From positions 19,164,525 through 19,228,524 of the forward strand of contig NC_060893.1 in assembly GCF_014805685.1 (NCBI RefSeq): DNA of 64,000 nucleotides, read 5' to 3'. Within the stretch, counting starts at the first letter, position 1; every line of letters starts with the position of its first letter. The notes beneath the pieces are model-generated. The model was given only the letters and a program-made list of their open reading frames with translations. It was not told the origin of the DNA and made no database searches. Below are positions 2,625-61,372 of this stretch, piece after piece. The position numbers and the translations under genes are program-made. This stretch comes from Silurus meridionalis (Eukaryota > Chordata > Actinopteri > Siluriformes > Siluridae).

Positions 2625-4096
2625 TTGAACACCCTGCTATTTTGCAAGTTCTCCCACTTACAAATTATGGAGGGGGTCTGAAATTGTCATCGTAGGTGCA
2701 TGTCCACTGTGAGAGACATAATCCCAAAAAAAAAAATCCAGAAATCACAATATATGATTTTTAAACTATCAATTTGTATGATACAGCTGCAAATAAGTAT
2801 TTGAACACCTATCTATCAGCTAGAATTCGGACCCTTAAAGACCTGTTAGCCTGCCTTTAAAATGTCCACCTCCAATTTATTATCCTAAATTAGATGCACC
2901 TGTTTGAGGTCGTTAGCTGCATAAAGACAGCTGTCCACCCCATACAATCAGTAAGAATCCAACTACTAACATGGCTAAGACCAAAGAGCTGTCCAAAGAC
3001 ACTAGAGACAAAATTGTACACCCCCACAAGGCTGGAAAGGGCTACGGGAAAATTGCCAAGCAGCTTGGTGAAAAAAGGTCCACTGTTGGAGCAATCATTA
3101 GAAAATGGAAGAAGCTAAACATGACTGTCAATCTCCCTCGGACTGGTGCTCCATGCAAGATCTCACCTCGTGGGGTCTCAATGATCCTAAGAAGGTGAGA
3201 AATCAGCCCAGAACTACACGGGAGGAGCTGGTCAATGACCTGAAAAGAGCTGGGACCACCGTTTCCAAGGTTACTGTTGGTAATACACTAAGACATCATG
3301 GTTTGAAATCATGCATGGCACGGAAGGTTCCCCTGCTTAAACCAGCACATGTCCAGGCACGTCTTAAGTTTGCCAATGACAATTTGGATGATCCAGAGAA
3401 GTCATGGGAGAAAGTCATGTGGTCAGATGAGACCAAAATAGAACTTTTGGGTCATAATTCCACTAAACGTGTTTGTAGGAAGAAGAATGATAAGTACCAT
3501 CCCAAGAACACCATCCCTACTGTGAAGCATGGGGGTGGTAGCATCATGCTTTGGGGGTGTTTTTCTGCACATGGGACAGGGCGACTGCACTGTATTAAGG
3601 AGAGGATGACCGGAGCCATGTATTGTGAGATTTTGGGGAACAACCTCCTTCCCTCAGTTAGAGCATTGAAGATGGGTCGAGGCTGGGTCTTCCAATATAA
3701 CAATGACCCAAAGCACACAGCCAGGATAACCCAGGAGTGGCTCTGTAAGAAGCATATCAAGGTTCTGGCATGGCCTAGCCAGTCTCCAGGCCTAAACCCA
3801 ATAGAGAATCTTTGGAGGGAGCTCAAACTCCGTGTTTCTCAGCGACAGGCCAGAAATCTGACTGATCTAGAGAAGATCTGTGTGGAGGAGTGGGCCAAAA
3901 TCCCTCCTGCAGTGTGTGCAAACCTGGTGAAAAACTACAGGAAACATTTGATCTCTGTAATTGCAAACAAAGGCTACTGTACCAAATATTAAAATTGACT
4001 TTCTCAGGTGTTCAAATACTTATTTGCAGCTGTATCATACAAATAAATAGTTAAAAAATCATACATTGTGATTTCTGGATTTTTTTTTTTTTTCCC
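2621..4096 (+). mobile_element. Tc1-like DNA transposon, right end truncated
   Basis: The left terminal inverted repeat starts GTATTTGAACACCCTGC. Inner inverted repeat arms at 2727-2810 and 4007-4093 (TATTTGAACACCT / AGGTGTTCAAATA, CCAGAAATCACAAT / ATTGTGATTTCTGG) flank a transposase pseudogene. The outer about 105 bp of the left repeat have no partner on the right, so the right end has been lost. Confidence 0.92.
2971..3992 (+). pseudogene. Tc1-like transposase, frameshifted
   Basis: DDE transposase that would cut and paste its own element at TA sites. The N-terminal helix-turn-helix reads [16 protein letters not shown] to about 3195, where a one-base loss puts TGA at 3196-3198; the rest continues in another frame to 3992 and ends CTKY. 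The first catalytic Asp is present (WSDET, 3426-3428) and the Glu of NPIENLW is present, but the second catalytic Asp is Asn (QYNNDPKH), and SPDLNP reads SPGLNP. The copy is therefore dead by frameshift, catalytic substitution and loss of an end. Confidence 0.93.
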
Positions 4097-16440: not shown

Positions 16441-34442
<18,002 letters not shown>

Positions 34443-41626: not shown

Positions 41627-42563
41627 TTGAACAGTACATCAGAGAGCATCTTTATAAAGTAACACCACCTCCTCAAACCCATAAATATAATACACTCAAC
41701 ATCGCAACATCTATAGTGACCATGCCTAAATATGAGTTATGATGGCAAAGCATTTAATGTCAGTCAACTCCAGAATTATCTGCCTTTTTATTTAAATGAT
41801 GAATAATTTATTAATTTATTTGTTTTTTTCATTTTAGACATCTGCTGGGATGTTTTTTGAAAGTGGAATGAAATTGGAAACCTCTCATGCATCCACAGAA
41901 TCCCATGCGCACAGAAAATAAGTGTTCGAAAAGTTTGATATTAAATTGAGAACTCTTGAGCTATGAAGCACAAATATTGTTTCCTGTCATGAGCAAAAAT
42001 TACATTCATTTCCCACTTTAAAAAACTGAAAACTGAAAACAAACAAGCAAATCAATACAGTGATGATAGGGTTTTCCAAGTGCCTTAGACCATTTGGTAA
42101 GGCATTAATCTTCAATTAAAAAAATCTAAATAGTAGAAAACCTAAAAAGTGGTTTTTCATTATCCTTTAACAGAACATGTAAACCTCTGTAAATTAAAAA
42201 AAAAAAAAAAGGGGAAACCCAGTTGCCATTATCCAATTCCTGTTTCCATATTGCACACATTTGCCTTTATACTGAATACAGTACTGATTTACTATAGTTC
42301 TTTATACTGATTAGTTGTTGAGCCAGAAATAAATTTCACAGACACAGCAGAAAGAAGTTACACATTTATAAACCATGCTAAATATGTTGCTGAATGCATG
42401 AGCATACTGGACTCACGGTTATGAAGGGCACCAATAATTTTGGAGTCGACTGTATATGAGCATCAAATGACACATGGAACTGACTGAAATACATTTAGTT
42501 GATATGTGAAGCAGTCAGAGTTGTTGCACAGACATTGGGAAGTGCATCTGATGTGTATATTTA

Positions 42564-42566
<3 letters not shown>

Positions 42567-42641: not shown

Positions 42642-42695
42642 TTACTTTGAATCTTCTGGGGCTGATGTGGGGGTTTCAGATTCCTCCTGAGTCTC
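42642..42695 (-). CDS. Small gene, terminal coding exon
   Basis: Acceptor CCTCTCATTCTAG, stop TAA at 42642-42644; 17 codons encoding the acidic tail [18 protein letters not shown] (CA)n tract follows in the presumed 3'UTR. Confidence 0.62.
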   Translation of the reverse strand, partial: ETQEESETPTSAPEDSK

Positions 42696-45600
42696 CTAGA
42701 ATGAGAGGAACATGCACATTTTTTAACAATGAAGAACATTCTTCTAATATATAAATACAGTAGGTGGTTGGGACACTACTACGATCAGAACTTTGTTCAG
42801 TGCTGATGCTAGTGCTTAACTTAGCAAGTACAATAGCTAGCATATTTATTTATGTGCATTATTTATTTATTTGTAGCCTTCATGCCAGCCATTCAACTTT
42901 GCATTTTAAGTGGTAGTCAGTAACAAAGGTCAAGTGTCTGGACTTTATCAGAATATTTACATTTTGGAAAAGTTTTATTTCCCTATATTTTAACTCCACA
43001 ATTCCACAATCCTTGTGAAAGTTTCAACAGAGTAAGAATACTCACTGATATTGACAATCTTCTCTAATTCTATTTAAACTTGGTCAAAAATGAAAATTGG
43101 ATTATTTTAGAGTAGCAAATTTGCAGCTTGTATAGTATATATTAACTGTCCTCTGAAAATAACAACATACAGCCATTATTGTCAAAATAACTGGCAACAA
43201 AAGTAATAATATGAAATATTTTGTGTGAGCACCACTGTTATCCAGCACTGCCTTTATCCTTTTAGGCATAGAATTCACCAGAGCTGCACAGGTTTTTGCT
43301 GGAATCCTCTTCCACTCTTTCGTAATGAAAAAAGAAAAAGCTGCTGAATGTTAGAAATGGTGCTTTTTCTGCATGAGGATGCCGCACAGGTGTTCAATAG
43401 GGTTCAGGTCTGGAGACATACTTGGCCACTCCATCACCTTCAGCTTCCTCAGGAAGGCAGTCATCATGGCAGTGTGTTTGGGGTTGTTAATTATGTTGGA
43501 AAACTGCTGTCCGGCTAAGTTTCTGAAGGGAGAGCATCATGTTCTGCTTCAGACCGCCACAATACATTGGAATTTATGTTTCCTTCAATGAACTACAGCT
43601 TTCAAATACCAGCAGCACTCGTGCAGCCCCAGACCATGATGCTACCACCACCATGCTTGACTGTAGGCAAGACACAATTTTCTAGGTCCTCCTCACCAGG
43701 GCGTCACCACACATGCTGGACAAAATCTGAGCCAAACAAGTTTATTTTAGTCTTAATAATACGATAATGGCTGTATGATGAGTTCTTTTTTTAGATGACA
43801 AAACAAGCTGCTAACTGACTACTCTGGAATATATCCAAGTTTTATTTCTATCTTATTGTTCCTTTAGAAGATATACTAAATGGTTGCTGAAATGGGACAG
43901 ATTATGATAATATATATACCAGAGCAATGCAAGGGTGTGTTTTGTTTTTTTGGAGCATTTTATGGTTTGTGTAGATAGAGAGGAATGAAGATGTTTACTT
44001 TTGTTTTTGCATGGAATAGGGAAGGTACTTTTGAAAAATTCTCAGGGAGCAATTTTGTTATTTTCACCATTTTGCCTTCATGATGCAATTCTCTGACATG
44101 TAGTGTGTTTTTGTACATTTTGCAGTGTGTTCATTTGAAATTGGCAAATCTGATGTCAGACGTCTAATGCATATGTTACAGCGCTTGCTTTTTACTTGCA
44201 TGACAAGCTGCCTAGTCTTGTTTATAGGAAAACTTTGTTTAAACTTTTATTATAGTAAAAAAAAAATTCTCCAACTCAACAGATATTTTTTGTTCATAGT
44301 TTAAGAAGTTCACTGGGAGTAACAGTGATAGTGGTATAATTAGGACGGTTTTATCACAGTAGCTGTTGGATCCTTTTGACCTCAAAAATCATGGTTAATA
44401 TTTAATAAGAGCACAATGACCTCACTGGAGAGCAGCTATAATAACTGACATATTGGAAAGTCTGTAAAGAATAGTAACTAAAATGAGGAAGAGCATTTGG
44501 GTTTTTTTTTTCATGTTGTTGTTGTTGTTGACTTGTCCTTAGTTGAACTGTGGTTCAACTCACCTTCACTTTGTCTAAATCTGATCCACCAGGAAGAGAC
44601 TTCTGAGGTATGTGGAAGGCCTAGAATATTTAGATCATTATATTAATACAAATCAGTAAATGTTGCATTTACATCAAACCTTTCATCTGAACATGACATG
44701 AACCGTGCATCTCTTAATTCAATGTGACCTGTTAACACTTCTTTCTACCTGAAACAATGACTGTCTACAGTTTTAACTGGGTTGCTACTATAAATTATGG
44801 ATAAAACATGACAAAGCATGCAGTCAAAGAAAAATAACCAGAGACACAATATGCCAGTGCATGTTTTATATTTAAACAATAGCAGGTCATGATTTTTTTC
44901 CTTTACAGTTACAATTAATTTTGTGGAATTTCTATAAAACTCCTTTAGTTAATAGTAATTATTTATTATTAGTTACACACTATCAGTGGCGGATAGTAAC
45001 AGAGTAATTTGTTACTGTAGTTAAGTAGCTGTTTTTGTATATCTGTACTTTACTGTATTTTCATTCGGGGACTTTGACTTTACTCCATTTTAAGGATTTT
45101 AAGGATGTTAGTAAACTCCGGTACTGATGTAGGAGAGGTGATGAGTCCTGTCCTGAGTCAGTGTTCCAATTCACCCAAAAGGTGTTTACTGGAATTGAGG
45201 TCAGAGCTCTATAGCAAGATAAGATATTCCACTCCAACTCATGTAAAGTATATTTTCATGAAGCTGATTTTGTGCATGAGTCACTGTCATGCTGGAACAG
45301 GTTTATGTTTCCTGGTTCAAGTGAAGGGAAAATTAAACGTTACTACATCCAGAAACATCCTACACATCTGTGTGCCTCCAGCGTTTTGGTAACAGTTTTG
45401 AAAAGAACCACATATTGCTGGGAAAGGCAGGTATCCCAATTCTTTTGTCGTTATAGTGTATGTTTACGCAAGACTGCACTGCCAAACTTAATCACAGGTT
45501 AATAATTTCAACAACAAATTGTTGGTTCGAAAATGAACAAGAATGAACAAAATGCATTCCTGAGTCTTCCTGTCACATGTCACACAGAGGTAAAATTATG

Positions 45601-48335
45601 ATAATGATGACAATGTTTTGATATAAAATGCAATTGTATCTGGGTTCATGCAATCTTAGAGTATCATTGAGTAAAACCTTAGAACCTTAGTAAAGAAAGG
45701 AAAAAAGCAAATCTTTTATATACTAAGTTACTTTATCTATTTGTTTAATTTTTGCTAAATTTGTCACCAAGAATTGTTATTAGGACCATTCAAATATCTT
45801 TCTCTCTCTTTCATTCATATTTTCTTACCACCCTTAATAAACAAATGCAGCACCACTGCTGTATAACATCTTAATTACTTCATAACATTTAAAGTTTCAG
45901 CAGAGCTTGTTCAGCTTTTGCCACTTTTTACTGAATCATGTTCATTTCATGTCTTTTTGCTTCAAATTCAACTGACCACAATTACACTTGCACACAAAAA
46001 CAATAAGCAAACTGAGAAAATAAACTGTACAGAAAGTACAAGTTACAGAAGTTTTCTGGGATAAACTGACATCAAGCTGAGTGAGAAGAACGTGCATGCA
46101 CAATAGCCTAAAAATATATATATATTTTTTTTTGGATGAGCAGTTACACTATCCATTACTATCACTGGTTAAATCGATGTTAATTAACTAGTGAGTGGCC
46201 AATAAATCATAATACGCTTAAATTCAGAGTTGTCCGAGTTCCATAACAGAATCCCTCACCTTCTTGGCTTGCTGGATTTCTTCTGTAGACTTGGACCTGC
46301 TCTTCACCATGTGCCTCTGAGGCGATGTTGTCTGAGGAAGTAGAAGAATCATATGGCTTTTTTCAATAATTTATAATAATTTAGTATTGTTCTGTAAGAG
46401 CTAAACAAACTGAAATAGCCTCATTGTATCCCAAATTGCACACTCTACTCAATAATTAAAAATTATTCAGCATGTGCAGATGTGTACTTAATAATGCACT
46501 GTTCAAATGCAAACAGTCGTGAACGAAAAGCATGCAATTTTTAGCGCCCCCTGCTGCCCACAAGGTGAATTTGAACATTCTCTTCCTTCTCCCTTCTTTA
46601 GCAGTCGAGGGTGGAGTTCATCATCATGCTGGGATTTTTTTCTTCTTTTCCAAGGAATTTTCAAACTTGGCAACAGTTTTAAAAAAAACCCACAAAAACT
46701 CGTTACTGGCCTTATTTTTTAGGCATGCACATTCTGTTTGTAATCTGCAATAAACCTTTTCCTTTTTGTGGCATGGTGCAAGATGGGTCATGACAAATTA
46801 TATATGTATATTTAAAAAATATTATAGGGCTATTATTATTAATATTAATATTATTATTATTATCATCATCATTATTATTAATAGTAGTAGCATATTCTAT
46901 TTTTATTTATTTATTGCATACATAAATGCATACATGCTACGTGTGTTCGTATTTCTTTGGGTGGTCATGTAATTTACTTTCTTTGCACAAACCGTGATCA
47001 TCTATATTACTGTAATCATAGTGCCTCACAATTCAAAGTCCTCATACACACATAACATCAGTATCTTGCCTGATAACCCAAAGTGTAGATGGATTTATTG
47101 CAAGAATAATACATGAATCCAAAACTCTGGCTACAATATATTAAAAGCATTTTTCACCATTTTCACAAAAGCAGGCTGTAAGCTGACTTGAGTAATGTTA
47201 AGACTGTGAGAATTGTTCCCTGCTTTCAGCCCCAGGGTTCATCGTGTACAGACATGCTGCTGATCCCTGGTCTGAACGTACTAAACAAGAAAAGAAAGGT
47301 AATAAGTACTGTACAGTTCAGTAAGGTAACGGTAAGGTACATTTAAAAGTACAGTAATAATCCTTAACATCCATTACATGAATTCCATTCCCATCGATTT
47401 TAAAAACTTGATAATATCCTCTAGGATCTTAAAACTGATGTCACCAAGAGTTCATGAAGTATAACCAGGGAGTATGTTTTTTAAATATTATTCAGAACAA
47501 TCCAGCATCCTTAATTGTAATTGAAAAGGTTTAATCCAGACTTTAATAACTAATAAACAAGTAGGTCTGTAAATACTGTCAGTGCAACTGTAAATGTGGT
47601 CACTTTCTGACTGCAAAAAGTTCAAAAAGCCCTGTTGCTCTTCTAGGTTCTTAAACTAAAGGTATACTAACAGTACCCATGATGCACCCTGATATATACC
47701 TTATACAACAGCTATAGATATTTATGGTATGAAATCTCAAAATCACCAGCAACAGAGTCAAAGCTACTACTAACACTGACGAACCTAAAATATTATTCAG
47801 AACTCCTTTAAAAGGATACTGTGTTCAATAACAATTGTAGTTATAGTACTGTAGTATTTCTTTCTTAACTTTATACAGTATAATAAAAACAGCACCAAAG
47901 CAAGACAAGCAATCTCTCCAGAGTGTTGCGATCAGCTGAGCTGCAAACAACTTTGTTTTTCCCTCGTATGCAATTACATTATTTATTGTAATATTATAGT
48001 CGCAGGACATTTAAACATATGTTGTATTTTATGTTATATTGTTTACTGTGTATGTATTTGTAAAAGGTGGAAATAATATCGTAACTCGAGTATAATGATG
48101 AGATATTAAGAAACAAGTGTCTTTGCCCCTGTCTGTGGTTAATACATTTAAAATCGAATAACAGTCTAAGGCAATAACATTAATCATGTAGCCATTAAGA
48201 TGATGAAAAGGGCCAATTTGATTGCATTCAATCAGCCATCCTTATATGTGTTTAATTTTAAATCAACCTCTTCTCTTATTTATTTATTTTTTTAATGGTT
48301 TGGATCCAAATCTCTTTTCTTACCTTCTGCTCCAT
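42642..48335 (-). CDS. Unrecognised four-exon gene for a 64-residue charged protein
   Basis: CDS joins complement(42642..42695, 44564..44620, 46260..46331, 48324..48335): 195 bp, 64 residues plus TAA. All junctions are phase 0 with GT-AG sites, and the ATG has a strong context (A at -3, G at +4). The product is basic in the middle ([18 protein letters not shown]), contains a Pro/Gly patch ([17 protein letters not shown]) and ends acidic ([17 protein letters not shown]). There is no signal peptide or membrane segment, and it is probably largely disordered; RSKST could be a basophilic-kinase site. It lies between rgs14 and slc34a1 on the same strand. I do not recognise the family, and this is not a known human neighbour. 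It was found from splice sites alone, so expression evidence is lacking. Confidence 0.65.
43150..43780 (-). mobile_element. Tc1-like transposase relic (antisense)
   Basis: GAATTCACCAGAGCTGCACA, AGGTGTTCAATAGGGTTCAG, CTTGGCCACTCCATCACCTT and CCACCACCATGCTTGACTGT are antisense Tc1 transposase words. It lies in an intron of the 64-residue gene. Confidence 0.78.
44564..44620 (-). CDS. Small gene, coding exon 3
   Basis: Acceptor ATATTCTAG, donor AGTGAAG/GTGAGT; 57 bp, 19 codons in phase 0 encoding [19 protein letters not shown]. Confidence 0.65.
45095..45465 (-). mobile_element. Tc1/mariner-derived non-autonomous repeat, copy 7
   Basis: CAATTCACCCAAAAGGTGTT, GTCATGCTGGAACAGGTTTA and TTGTCGTTATAGTGTATG match the family. 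It lies in an intron of the 64-residue gene. Confidence 0.78.
46260..46331 (-). CDS. Small gene, coding exon 2
   Basis: Acceptor TTCTACTTCCTCAG with a good polypyrimidine tract, donor CCAAGAAG/GTGAGG; 72 bp, 24 codons open in phase 0. It encodes [18 protein letters not shown] and IQQAKK. Confidence 0.65.
46826..46892. repeat. (ATT)n-rich simple repeat
   Basis: ATT units with ATC and AGT variants; Ile-rich frames through it are artefacts. Confidence 0.9.
48324..48335 (-). CDS. Small gene, first coding exon part (M-E-Q-K)
   Basis: ATG at 48335-48333, donor GCAGAAG/GTAAGA. Only four codons lie in this exon. Upstream DNA contains an ETS-like CTTCCGG at roughly 48351-48357, which may mark a promoter-proximal 5'UTR. 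Confidence 0.55.
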
Positions 48336-49980
48336 GATGGAAAATATTGCAACCGGAAGACACAGGAGGGTGCAGAAGGATGCTGAATGCAGAAGAGACA
48401 CGTTTTATCTTTATCACTCGCTCAAGGCCTGTCAGTGTGATAAAGCAAAATCGCGTTAACAAGCATGTAATGCAATGAGTGCACAAATGTCACAATGTGA
48501 TGTGAGACATCACCACTAGAGGTCGCCTGTTTTTTTTTTCATTCGTATCCATTCAGACATGCTCAGCAGCTTTAAGGTGTTTAGCTAATGTAGGATCCAT
48601 GAAGATTAGAGATGGAATATTATGTACATAAAGCATTAATGAAAACCTTCTACTTCTAGTAATACGCTGTTAAAGTTTAACCATTTACATTATATGTATG
48701 CATATAAAGACAGCAGAGGTGTTGATGCATACATGATTATGAGCATGAGCATTGATCTGCCAAGGCCAGAGGGGACACATGGTATTAACAGAGGCCAGGT
48801 CACCATGGAAACACAAAAGAGTGACTCCAAGTATTAAATTCTCTCATCGCACAGACACAGTTACAAAAATGTTAATTAGAAATTAGTCCTAGTGTTCGCA
48901 AGGTAATATGGTACTATGGTATGGCAATAAAGTACCTTTGTCCATTCACTAACAACCCCCCCCCCGTTTAAACACACACTGTACAATCAGGCAGTCCAAA
49001 TGACTCATACCTTTTATTATTTCTACATTTGCTTTAATGCAATATCAATAATCTAAAAGAAAAAAATGTTAATATTTTAATGGCATTCCCACAGGACCAG
49101 TGTTGATTTACCATGTAGTAGTAGTAGTGTGTTTTTACTGACTAAAAAATTAATGGTGGTCTCAGGCCCATAAAGCAGAGACCTAAGATAGAAAACTATA
49201 ACTCCTTTGTGTGTGAACATGGGCATAGCCCTGAACTGGTGCCCCAGTTTTACTAGCAGCCATTCCATCTACACTCCTAATAACCGTCTCCACTCTTCGG
49301 CTAGTCAGTCATATCCATAATCTGCTGTTGCATTAAGTGTCACTGTATTTTTTCTCCATTATGTTTAATTACTAATTTATATTCGCAATACAGGATATTC
49401 TATACAGACTATGTCAAACACTACTTAATACTTCCTATAGAGTATTTGTGGATGCACAAAAATACAGGCTTGTAATAATGCACTATGCCACACCTTGAAA
49501 TACTTCTATCGTAGATGGCATTTGGTGCTAGACAGTGACTTTTCGAGTGAATCAAAATGTCTTTTTTTCCCTATGGAATAATCAGTCTACAGGGAAAGGG
49601 CAGGTTACACTTTTTACATGTGCATATATATAATCTGACAGTTCTGTGATTGTATGACATTTCAGATATAGAGTGTCTATTTTTTTCAATAGTGATGCAT
49701 ACATTTTAGGTTTATGCTATTCTCTATGGCACGTAAATAATACAATTAAACATTTTAAGCACCTCAGGCACCCAAATGGCATTATTGTTCATCCTACCCC
49801 TTCATTTTTATCCATATATTAGCGGTACCTTTTTAAAAAAACAGCTTGTACGTCATAGGAATGACATGCTGTAGTTGCTTCCTGGCTCCTGATGATGAAT
49901 GGATCCGAATCTGACTGTGCACTGTGTAACACGAATGTAAAAGACATCTAAAGCACTCGAGCACAAACCAGTCACAACCC

Positions 49981-52413: not shown

Positions 52414-52706
52414 TCAATGCGACGTCCCTTTGGCCGCACCCGTTTTGTTCTTCTCTACGTTAGAGTCTTTATGATTTCCATTAATACGCAGCATCTCTTC
52501 ATGATTCACTGCTTTTTCCGCAGGTTTCATGTGACTGTTTGAGCATCTCTCCTGTACCTTCTCAGGATTCTCTTCTTTACTCTTTCGGTCATACTGCTGA
52601 GCAGGAATCTGCAAGAACTTTGGCAGCTCCAGTTGTTCTTTGGTTAATAAGCCACGCTGGTCGTCCGCACGGCTGCACTGCACACGGGTCAGCATCTCCA
52701 CCAGAC
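52414..52706 (-). CDS. rgs14: rgs14 terminal exon with GoLoco motif
   Basis: Acceptor ATCATTCAG, stop TGA at 52414-52416; 293 bp. It encodes [20 protein letters not shown], whose D-Q-R triad is the Gi-GDP binding signature of GoLoco motifs, then [10 protein letters not shown] and a hydrophilic tail. Confidence 0.96.
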
Positions 52707-55700
52707 CTGAATGATTTGATATTTATTATGTAGTTACTCTGTGTTAAACAGGACCGATTTTGAATCGGCCAGTCACTAGGTGACCATCACTTTCAGGTGA
52801 GCAAGAGGCAGATTTAACTTGCAGCATAATCAGTATTAAGTATCTGACAACCTACAGTAACATCCTCACTAGGGGTGGTTAAAGTGGTTAATAATCTATA
52901 TATTTCTGTTTTTTATTTACTTTGGTCATCAACCCAATAGCTTTCAAACGGTGTAGCAATATTCATCTTGGTTAATTCTGCTTACCAATGTGCCTTTATT
53001 ATACATCATTCCTGCTGAAATTCAGTATATGTGTAAATAAGGCATCAAAATACCTCACTGCAATATTGTGCCGTTTGTTCATTTAATACCAGCTGTTTTC
53101 AGGAAACGTGCCCAGCCTGTGTGGTCTTCTAGAAAAAGCCATAGGCAATGTAGGTCCATTGTTGTATGTTTTTTGTAGGAGCCCATAAAACAATTATATA
53201 TTATCTATTGAAGAAAAAAAGAAAAATAAATAAAAAACACTATCGCCTGTCTTTTTTCCTTTTTTATTGGAGTCACAGGACTGAAATAGCGCACTGATTA
53301 GGCTCATTAGCTGCAGGTGTAGTGCAGAGAGCTGCACTCCCACGGGACTCGACGCAATCGAGTGCAGCACGAGGATAAGATTTAATTGGTGAATGTGGGT
53401 GCGAGCGGTAAAATACTCGTGTGTGGGTTGCGGGAGAATAAAATCATTCGCAGGATTCGCGGAAAAATGGCCATAAAAATATATGAAAAATAATAACAAC
53501 TAAAAACCAATTTATGTATCTACCTCAGAAAAGCAACAATGGCAACTAAAATAAAATAAAACTATTTACAGGCACAAGGTTGAACGTGAACTCTCGTTTG
53601 GTTTATGTGCAAGTGAAGCAAGTAAAACTAAAAGAGAGTACGGAAAACAGTCAGTGTATTAAAAATAAAACTACATACATTCTTGCAGCGGGAGCAGTAC
53701 AAAGCTTAATATTGCAGGTGGCAGTGGGAAAAAAATAAGGTTTTTGCAGGAACAGGACTGAGAAATCCATCCAGTGCTTGTCTCTAGTGTAGCGTTTTGC
53801 TCGTTTCATCGGACTCCGCCCTCCGCTCCTGAACCACTGCTATATGCTTATTTTCATTACTGTTTTAATGATCACCATTGGATATGAAAGCGTACCCATA
53901 AAGCTTTTACCGACTTTTAAGCCTTTACTTTGCCTTTAATAGATTATATATAATTGTTTGTTTCCTAGGATCCTTTAAAAACCATATAACGATAGACCTT
54001 CATCGTCTATGGCTTTTTCTGGGACACTACTAGACCCTGCACTCGTGAAACGCTGCCACAGAGCGTGTGGACCATTTTGTTCTTTTATAAACCCTTTGAA
54101 CAGACTATTGACCAGCATTTCAATCTTAGTCATTCCACTGCACAGCATTTGAAGTTACTGCACTGCAGAGTTCTGTTTGTAAGCTAAAATCAACTACTGC
54201 AACAAATGCAGAGTTTTTATTACTTACACATGAATAAAACTTTTTTTCATTGGTGACACTAAAAATTAAACACTATAGCAGACCAAAGGCCACAGCAGAT
54301 TTGTAATTCAAATGTCATTCAGCAAAAACATGTTCGTGCGTCGGTCTTGGTACAGCTGATTAGATGATTGGTTGTCCTGAGAACAAGCACATGTACTGCT
54401 GGCCTTGTTTATAGTATTAAAAACCACCAGTTGCCTCAGGGTTGGTGGTGTTAACATTTTTTGCTTTGCTTCCCCTAAATAGTGCAAACTTTGCAAATAA
54501 CTTTTGCTTGGTCACAGACAATAAAACAACTAATGACAGTTTTTACATTTCAGAAGACAGCTTTTTCCTCTCCCTCTCCACACATGCATAAGTTCTACTA
54601 TGTTGAGAATTGTTCTCCAAAGGGGTCAACAAAAATCTATAGTACTGTTGAACTATGACATTGTACTGCATTTTAGCAGCAACTCTTCCTAATACCAGTT
54701 GTAGACAGTGTAAAATATATGGCAGAATATGATAGCAGCACAATAAGTTATTTACTGTTACATTTGGTGTACAACGATAATAGAATTTTGATGGTACTTA
54801 CCATCCATCTCATTTCTGGGCTTGGTACTTATTCGGACTCTGTCTACAGCTGGACTTGGCTTTACATCACCCCCACCTCCTCCTGCTCCATCTAGAGAAA
54901 CACAAAATACAAAAAGTCAGTCAAATGTAAAACAGGGTACCGGTGGATATTGGGCTACTGTTTGCCAAAGAAGGAGAAGGATAGAAGGAAGACGTCTACA
55001 GAGACAGCAGGAAAAGGAAGCAGAGGAGAGTGGAGGTTCAGGTTGGTACAGGATGTGGATGATGTGGAGTTGGTGAAGCAGGAAGTGGAAAGGATTAGTA
55101 ACAAGGAAGTGAGAGCAGCGATTAAGAGGATGAAGACCATATGACATACCAGTAGAAGCATAGAGATGGCAGTGGAGTTTTTATCAAGATTGTTTAACAA
55201 GATTTTGGAAGGTGAGAGGATGCCTGAGGAATGGAGATGAGTATGCTGGTACCAATTTCTAAGAATAATGGAGATACCTACTGGGGAATAAAGTTGATCA
55301 GTCACAAAAAATTATTGGAAAGAGTAGCAGAAGCCAGGCTGAGAAAAGAGGTGACCATCTCTTAGCAACAGTATGGTTTCAGTATGCCGAGGAAGAACAC
55401 TACAGACCCATTTTTTGTTTTGAGAATGTTGATTGAGAAGAATACAGAAGGTCAAAAGAAGTTGTATTGTTTGTGGATTTAGAGAAAGCGTACGACAGGG
55501 TGCCGAGAGAGGAGTTGTGGTATTGTATGAGGAAGTCTGGTGTGTCAGAAGTATGTGAGGGTGGTGCAACACATGTATGAGGACAGTGTGACAGCAGTGA
55601 AGAGTGCAGTAGGAACGACAGACTGGCTCAAGGTAAAGGTGGGACTGAATTAAGGATTGGCTCTGAGCCCTTTACTGTTTGCAGTGGTGATGGATGAGGT

Positions 55701-56201
55701 CAGACAGGAGTCTTAATGGACTATGATGTTTGTGGACTATGTTATTTGTGGTAAGAGTAGAGAGCAGGTTCAGTAAAGCCTGGAAAGGTGGAGGTACATG
55801 CTGGAGAGAAGGGGAATGAAAGTCAGTAGGAGTAAGACAGTACATGTGTGTGGATGAGAGGGAGGGAAGTGGAGTGGTGCGGTTGCAGGGAGAAGAGGTG
55901 GAGGAGTTCAGGTACCTGGGGTCTACAGTGCGTTAGAGAAGTGAAGAAAAGAGTGCAGGCAGGTTTGGGTGGAGAAGAGTGGCAGGGTGATTTGTGATAG
56001 AGTATCTGCAAGAGTGAAAAGAAAAAGTTTATAGGACTGTGGTGAGACCTGCGATGTTGTATGGTTTCGAGACAGTGGCATTGAGTAAAAGACAGGAGGT
56101 GGAGCTGTGGGTAGCAAAGCTGAAGATGTTGAGGTTTTCGTTGGGAGTGACAAAGATGGACAAGATTAAAATAAAAGTTAAATAATAAAAGTTAAATAAA
56201 A

Positions 56202-59200: not shown

Positions 59201-61372
59201 ACAACCGGGCATGAAGAAACACACTTCACCTGTGTTCTGAGATGCACGGCATTGGGAGAAAAGCTTCACCGATGGTGATTTTTAAACGCACAACGATGCC
59301 AAAAGAAAACCTCCCGAGAGAAATAGTTGTGAAAGGAAGGACAGTGAACAATGACTTTCTTGGTAGGCTACTGTTTAGATACAAGCCGTGTAACAGACAC
59401 TGTCTTTCATTAAAGCCTGTGTAAAGTTTATTGGTTTCAGTGTAGACACCTGTGGCTTATAGACAGGTGCGGCATATTTATGTTCAAAATAAAAATCTTT
59501 GTAAAATATAGTGCGGCTTATATTTGGGTGCGCTTAATAGTCCGGAAATTACGGTATATGTTTTGGGTCTTTTTTGCAAGTCAATGCATTCTGTTTTTAA
59601 TTGACATTTTTCCAAACTTTTTTTTTTTTATTAGGGTTGTATATTAAAAGTCTGGTCATTCCATTTTATAATAATCTTAGTGAATTTTTTTTTTTTTTTC
59701 ATTTGATAAATCTTATATTATGGATATTTGATTATTAGATTAAGCATTTGGCAAAGGGACTCACGTAAATGTTATTCTGAGTTCCAGAGTGACCTGCTGA
59801 TCCTGCAGGACAGAACTGTCCTGGTCCAAGGAGAGAGGCTGTTGCCTCTGACACACATTCTGCAAAATACAACATCACAGTAGAGCATTATTTAACTGCT
59901 GCAAAATCAAAGATAATATCAGCTGTCAGTCTATTACCAAGCTGTGGTTGTTAAATCAGTGCTGAAATTACTAGTTAACCCCACAGATCACAGATTTAAC
60001 ATATAAATAAATAAAAGGACTGATCTGACAGCAGTTCACATAAGACACCAGGTGCTTTATGTAAGAAAATTTAGGACAGTGCGTGTGTGACCTTATCCTT
60101 GCCCTGGAGGTAGATAACGATGTCTTTCATGGGGAAGCCTCTTTTCTCACACAGGCCGCTGAGCATGTCCCGCAGAGTCATACCGGCTCGAGCCGGCGCA
60201 AGGCTCGCAGTGCCATCGGGCAGAAACACACAGCAGTACTTATCCGCTCGACCTGACGAGTTCGGCTCTGGACCAGAAAGACACCCATCCTGAAGAAAAT
60301 GCAGGATTACAATATAGCATGGCAAATGGAAGACAAAATACCAGATTCTGACTGCAAAAATTCATCCTGCAATAAGGAAAAAGTTTCAATATTTCATTTT
60401 TAGATTATTCTAAAAACAAAACTGAAGCCAAAGGAAATTATTTCTTGGCATGTGTACTAACAAATAAACCCTTAAAATGTGTAAAATTATCCACCAATAG
60501 AACAAGATGTATTTACAATATATATGTATTACATAAATATTGTAGTTAAGTAAAAAAATTACTAATTGTAAATAAAACCAAATTCTAACAAACAAACAAA
60601 TAAAAACTATAGTGACTGCCCAATAACAGTACAAACATTTGTGGACTGCTGACCATCTGATTTTTTATGTACGTTCTGAACATCCAATTGCATATTTAGT
60701 CCCCATTTGCTGTTATAATAACCTCCACTCCTCTGGGAAGATGCTACACTAGAGTTTGGAGTGTGGGGCATTAGTAAAGTCATGTACTGAGTACGAGGAG
60801 GAGGAGGCCTGGGGTGCAGTCAGTGTTCCATTGTATCTTAAAAGGTGTTCAATAGGGTTGAGGTCAGAGCTCGGTAGCAGGCAGCTCAAGATCCTCCACT
60901 CCATAGAAATTATATCTTAATGGAGCTGGCTTTGTGCACAGGGGCACGGTCATGCTGGAACATGTTTGGGTCTCCTAGTTCAGTTGATGGGAAAAGTTAA
61001 TCCTGCATCCAAAACCCTCGTTTACAGTTGGATCAACTAACTTTGTAATAGCTTAGAGAAGCACCACATATGGATAGAGAAGTCAGGTGTCCATTTAGTG
61101 TATATTGAATATATATTTTCTCAAATATAGAAACAGCATGGAAACAATTTTTCTATGGCAGATATTTGCTACTGAATTTCATTCTGCATGAATTTCAGGT
61201 TTGTGGCCGATATCTGGATCAGTCATTTAGGATTTGTACTGTTATACTTGCACACAGACACACATACATCTGATTTGTTGGCTAGTGACCCCAACTCCAC
61301 ACTGCTGCTGGATTTCACGGAAATCTGAGACTCCTGCCGCGACACAGTGACCTGCCGGTAAGACAAGTCTAC

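Follow-up and report, generated by a model that had tools for sequence, protein, structure and literature searches.

A conserved four-exon gene for a 64-residue protein between the putative rgs14 gene and slc34a1 of Silurus meridionalis

The window analyzed here is a stretch of 64,000 nucleotides of Silurus meridionalis DNA (contig NC_060893.1, positions 19,164,525 to 19,228,524). Reading its minus strand from 48335 to 42642, we obtained an open reading frame of four exons (12+72+57+54 nt) that gives 195 nt and a product of 64 amino acids (Table 1). The introns are all GT-AG and each junction is in phase 0, so that skipping of exon 2 or exon 3 stays in frame. The ATG has a good context, with A at -3 and G at +4, and the acceptor of exon 3 is weak, with pyrimidines at 7 of 12 positions. 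No signal peptide or membrane stretch was seen by eye in the 64-residue product, and a scan of the window for RNA families gave none at or above the gathering score.

Exons with Ras-binding and GoLoco matches lie on one side of the gene and Na/Pi-cotransporter exons on the other, all on the minus strand, in agreement with the position between rgs14 and slc34a1 proposed in the first-pass annotation. Pfam alone cannot separate rgs14 from its paralogue rgs12; the upstream gene is presumably rgs14, given its neighbour slc34a1. The slc34a1 exons match P0079, a single gene model from Hemibagrus in which exons 2 and 3 of the microprotein gene are joined with a reverse-transcriptase piece and with exons of slc34a1. 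P0079 thus spans from exons 2-3 into slc34a1, which shows the same gene order in a second catfish. The possibility that the four exons are part of rgs14 was ruled out, the reading frame having its own, conserved start and the Ras-binding and GoLoco exons lying upstream.

Table 1. Features of the window, with positions counted from its first letter; a slash marks an exon boundary.
Feature	Position	Strand	Remarks
Ras-binding match, rgs14	in frame 60071-60361	-	Pfam; upstream of microprotein gene
GoLoco match, rgs14	in frame 52414-52722	-	Pfam; upstream of microprotein gene
5' leader and promoter side of exon 1	48336-48460	-	presumed, by inference
Exon 1, coding part, MEQK	48335-48324	-	12 nt; donor AAG/gtaaga
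Exon 2, 24 aa, core motif	46331-46260	-	72 nt; acceptor cctcag/A; donor AAG/gtgagg
Exon 3, 19 aa	44620-44564	-	57 nt; acceptor attctag/G; donor AAG/gtgagt
Exon 4, acidic tail of 17 aa and stop	42695-42642	-	54 nt including TAA; acceptor attctag/G
Possible ATTAAA polyadenylation signal past the stop	42560-42565	-	pattern only
First AATAAA downstream of the stop	41820
slc34a1 Na/Pi exons	33899-33717, 32100-31948, 27912-27727, 25998-25780, 25381-25298	-	match Hemibagrus P0079
Last slc34a1 exon	17076-16441	-	presumed
P0079-type reverse-transcriptase fragments	30628-30970, 55366-55710	+	with stops
Tc1-like transposase-like piece within intron 3	43351-43536	-	DDE_3, E 1.2e-4, below curated cutoff
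Long open Tc1-like transposase frame	3102-3992	+	HTH_Tnp_Tc3_2 and DDE_3 matches

The first-pass annotation had rated the chance of such closure in random intronic DNA as low, and shuffled sequence bears this out. Under strict rules for donors (NAG/GTRAG), with simple rules for acceptors and start and with thresholds set when the exons were already known, none of 200 dinucleotide shuffles of the 5.8 kb contained a closed four-exon phase-0 chain. Looser donors gave a chain in 11 of the 200 shuffles, and one of the 200 reached the real count. The real piece yielded 72 chains in the strict test. When overlapping pieces of 5.8 kb from across the window were put through this test, 0/291 pieces were positive on the plus strand and 10/291 on the minus strand, and all ten overlap the microprotein gene. 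Pieces without exon 4 were still positive (64 chains from 42800), indicating that the three donors and the internal exons are what the test marks out, to the exclusion of exon 4 and the start. The gene, exon 4 included, is decided by its homologues rather than by the chain test.

All 13 candidates of a single-sequence search matched, with E values from 5.5e-26 to 2.1e-8; they came from Pangasianodon (89% identity), Ameiurus, Astyanax, Albula, five frog species, a gecko and two others. Of 5162 candidates in a profile search, 78 were hits at E<=10, and for 74 the E value was 1.3e-4 or lower. This search added the fishes Callorhinchus, Scyliorhinus, Chiloscyllium, Acipenser, Erpetoichthys and many teleosts, along with the tetrapods Xenopus laevis and Pelobates and the lizards Podarcis, Varanus, Phrynocephalus and Lerista. 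For P0077 and P0078 (E 2.7 and 6.9 in the profile search), the common part is only AFHTPQKSLP. Among longer candidates (about 166-527 aa), five of 28 matched, namely P0079, P0015 and three intron-reading proteins, and two of these were already known; on this outcome we rejected, for proteins of that length range, the idea that the product is one domain within a longer known protein. The searches together gave 81 distinct related proteins. Conservation in related fish, a test named beforehand, thus came out in the gene's favour, and the suggestion that the gene is fish-specific was wrong, since frogs and lizards also have homologues. No mammal, bird, turtle or crocodile was found among the 60 relatives with an organism name, where each cluster carries one representative name. 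We treat the absence from mammals and birds as a lead and not as proof of loss, the record being one of annotated proteins, among which small ones are easily overlooked.

Two versions of the protein were found in six teleosts (Albula goreensis, Anguilla, Arapaima, Synaphobranchus, Danionella and Astyanax), consistent with the teleost genome duplication. In a tree of 48 rows and 65 columns, in which 20 of 45 inner branches were open, the window protein groups with the catfishes Pangasianodon and Ameiurus (96/93), the tetrapods form one group (95/87), and the cartilaginous fishes group with one further row (93/80). In its broad outline the tree agrees with that of the species. On this sequence evidence, the gene is an ancient, four-exon gene of jawed vertebrates with a product of roughly 64-76 residues.

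The exon boundaries can also be recognized in the relatives. Fifteen of the 81 depart from the family sequence exactly after the terminal KK of exon 2, each with V (13 detected by script; P0074 and P0076 added by eye), and we attribute this V to read-through of a phase-0 GT donor at the position of the window's donor. Inspection by eye placed the end of exon 1 after four residues also in P0063 (MEQK/V...) and P0062 (MDPK/AFHTP), and slightly later in P0072 and P0076. In P0072, P0077 and P0078, unrelated sequence gives way to the family sequence at the first residue of exon 3, again by eye. P0072, from a contig of 3743 nt, was read by eye as four exons and three intervening stretches in frame, with a return to the family sequence at the exon 4 junction. 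Two exon-skipped forms, which are gene models and not reads, keep the frame: P0062 (Anomaloglossus isoform 2) joins MDPK to AFHTPQ and skips exon 2, and P0065 (Albula glossodonta) cleanly skips exon 3, as judged by eye. In a Synaphobranchus copy (P0045), an additional Q stands between exons 2 and 3, which an alternative CAG acceptor would explain.

P0002 and P0004 align to the window protein across all four exons without gaps. Both are among 18 'lgn' proteins, which we take to be derived from assemblies of public sequencing runs. Seven of the 18 are complete family ORFs (P0002, P0004, P0016, P0028, P0034, P0048 and P0066, on contigs of 981 to 3371 nt), and the other 11 run into introns, suggesting that the source predicts ORFs without splicing. 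If it does, the seven complete ORFs are spliced transcripts or, less likely, retrocopies.

The homologues decide whether the four exons could be a chance splice-like pattern without a gene. Such a pattern would suit the very small exons, the weak acceptor of exon 3 and an exon 4 that the chain test does not single out, but it would leave 81 related proteins to be explained, 15 of them breaking exactly at the exon 2 donor, together with the gap-free match of P0002 and P0004 over four exons. The homologues rule this reading out, and we give it a negligible probability. That the gene is real we regard as practically certain; the reading frame, the splice sites and the homologues confirm the claim of a real coding gene of four exons, with the coordinates exact.

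We analyzed conservation in an alignment of 38 full-length rows, made up of 37 of the 78 relatives and the window protein. Residues M1, R16, S17, S19, E22, Q34, S36, L37 and P38 are invariant, and S7, P8, Q9, K10, K14, K18, T20, F30 and E48 are kept in at least 90% of the rows. The window protein has R at position 10, where the family has K, and three rows have M instead of K at position 18. Conservation is strong around the RSKSTEE...QKSLP core, with percomorph rows more divergent there, e.g. KNRSKSTEEMQQSKKAF-SSQKSLP. The mean match to the window protein was 0.72, 0.70, 0.62 and 0.36 for exons 1, 2, 3 and 4, respectively; exon 4 is the least conserved and, judged from the alignment, exons 2-3 are under strong protein-level constraint. 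The window protein and its nearest otophysan relatives lack the T-P of TPQKS and read HIPQK; percomorph and salmonid-like rows (SSQK) lack it too, though the second otophysan version keeps it. Because it is missing in several groups, the T-P site cannot be essential.

An AlphaFold2 model of the relative P0002, made with 36 others, had a mean pLDDT of 60.7 and a single helix at residues 20-30. The microprotein is probably mostly disordered, a reading that takes low pLDDT as an indirect sign and P0002 as stand-in for the window protein. The earlier description of a small product, basic then acidic and probably disordered, was right, and a low-confidence model with one helix is what a disordered protein would give. 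A search over the 38 rows gave seven Pfam families, in one or two rows each, the best being NYAP_C at E 0.0035 in one row. A relative in the PDB was also sought and rejected, the best E being 2.4 by sequence and 0.31 by profile.

The location of the exons directly upstream of slc34a1, on one strand, suggests another reading, in which they are alternative 5' exons of slc34a1 or belong to a joint transcript, and the small ORF is an upstream ORF or bicistronic leader tuning the output of the phosphate transporter. The Hemibagrus model that joins exons 2-3 to slc34a1 exons would fit this reading, as would the sturgeon relative P0020, which is named sodium-dependent phosphate transport protein 2A-like. 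However, the small ORF is conserved at the amino-acid level and has its own start and stop codon, and the reverse-transcriptase piece included in P0079 suggests a wrong gene merger. We consider a leader of slc34a1 quite improbable.

As a class of mechanism, we infer that the protein could be a phosphorylation-switched docking peptide, with a probability of about 0.5. The microprotein would be cytosolic or nuclear. The conserved R-S-K-S, which we read as a basophilic-kinase, 14-3-3-like context (RSxS), would be the target of a basophilic kinase. A proline-directed kinase would phosphorylate S-P-Q-K, with S-P-x-K taken by us as a CDK-type site, and also T-P-Q-K, presumably a second proline-directed site, where it is present (in many relatives, not in the window protein). 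One partner would be bound through the helix and the QKSLP motif, with phosphorylation leading to gain or loss of this binding, and the variable acidic tail would tune it; skipping of exon 2 or exon 3 could yield forms without one motif. Short motifs match by chance. The RSxS site is fully conserved, with R16, S17 and S19 the same in all 38 rows, and the proline at +2 of 14-3-3 mode I is not present in these rows, residue 21 being E or D, or G or S in four of them.

The basic R-S-K-S stretch and the helix might instead occupy the active cleft of one kinase or phosphatase, making the protein an inhibitor of that enzyme. Small PKI and ARPP/ENSA proteins inhibit by occupying the active cleft, and the size, the probable disorder and the one conserved phosphorylatable basic stretch beside a helix are what such an inhibitor would have. 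Against it, the window protein matched no Pfam family, ARPP/ENSA and PKI included, with scattered weak matches in the 38 rows, and S19 is invariant, which favours a substrate over a pseudosubstrate. We hold an inhibitor to be unlikely and retain the docking peptide as our preferred reading.

An ORF of fewer than 100 codons, protein-level conservation from chimaera to lizards, no known domain in Pfam and probable disorder by the P0002 model place the gene, itself uncharacterised, among the deeply conserved, motif-rich microproteins. Conserved small-ORF products are disordered and rich in linear motifs according to the excerpted text of PMC4568590. The animal small-ORF micropeptides of that excerpt share with the window protein a length below 100 aa, protein-level conservation, probable disorder, richness in motifs and no homology found to larger proteins; the window gene is unlike them in its four coding exons and its reach to cartilaginous fishes. 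Full-text literature searches did not find the core peptides, and none of the matches listed points, in its title or the opening of its abstract, to a gene lying between RGS14 and SLC34A1. In the excerpted main text of PMC6886504, neither RGS14 nor SLC34A1 nor 5q35 is mentioned. The function of the 64-residue protein appears not to have been studied yet. Its core is kept from sharks to lizards, and such a core very likely does something. This conserved core has no name or match in Pfam, the PDB or the literature searched, as expected from the first-pass annotation, which recognised no family. Zebrafish and Xenopus would lend themselves to a knock-out of the gene.

RGS14 and SLC34A1 (NPT2A) flank the microprotein gene on one strand; the microprotein differs from both in having no RBD, GoLoco or Na/Pi domain, given that no Pfam family matched. 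In kidney cells, hormone-sensitive NPT2A transport is repressed by RGS14 (PMC12133299, in excerpt), and the human 5q35.3 locus has kidney-stone associations (PMC3291538, in excerpt). A role shared by the microprotein with RGS14 and SLC34A1 is speculation based on the neighbourhood only. A wider proposal strikes us as far-fetched: that the microprotein belongs to jawed vertebrates, has been lost or is hidden in mammals and birds, shares its regulation with rgs14 and slc34a1, and regulates the phosphate transport pathway under the control of phosphorylation. The distribution raises the question of whether some amniote lines have lost the gene or simply lack its annotation, in an interval that shows associations with kidney stones in humans.

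The earlier suspicion that the gene is unannotated holds in that it has no named family, but many genomes list an uncharacterised protein and a few give it a neighbour's or an unrelated name. The named uncharacterised homologues include PHYPO_G00241490 (Pangasianodon), XELAEV_18017292mg (Xenopus laevis) and V9LEF8 (Callorhinchus), each a sequence homologue of the window protein to which the search listing gives no function. The source names of P0020 (phosphate transporter), P0027 (SEC7) and P0049 (TCEA3) are, in our reading, not supported by their sequences, and they look like annotation errors or the names of neighbours.
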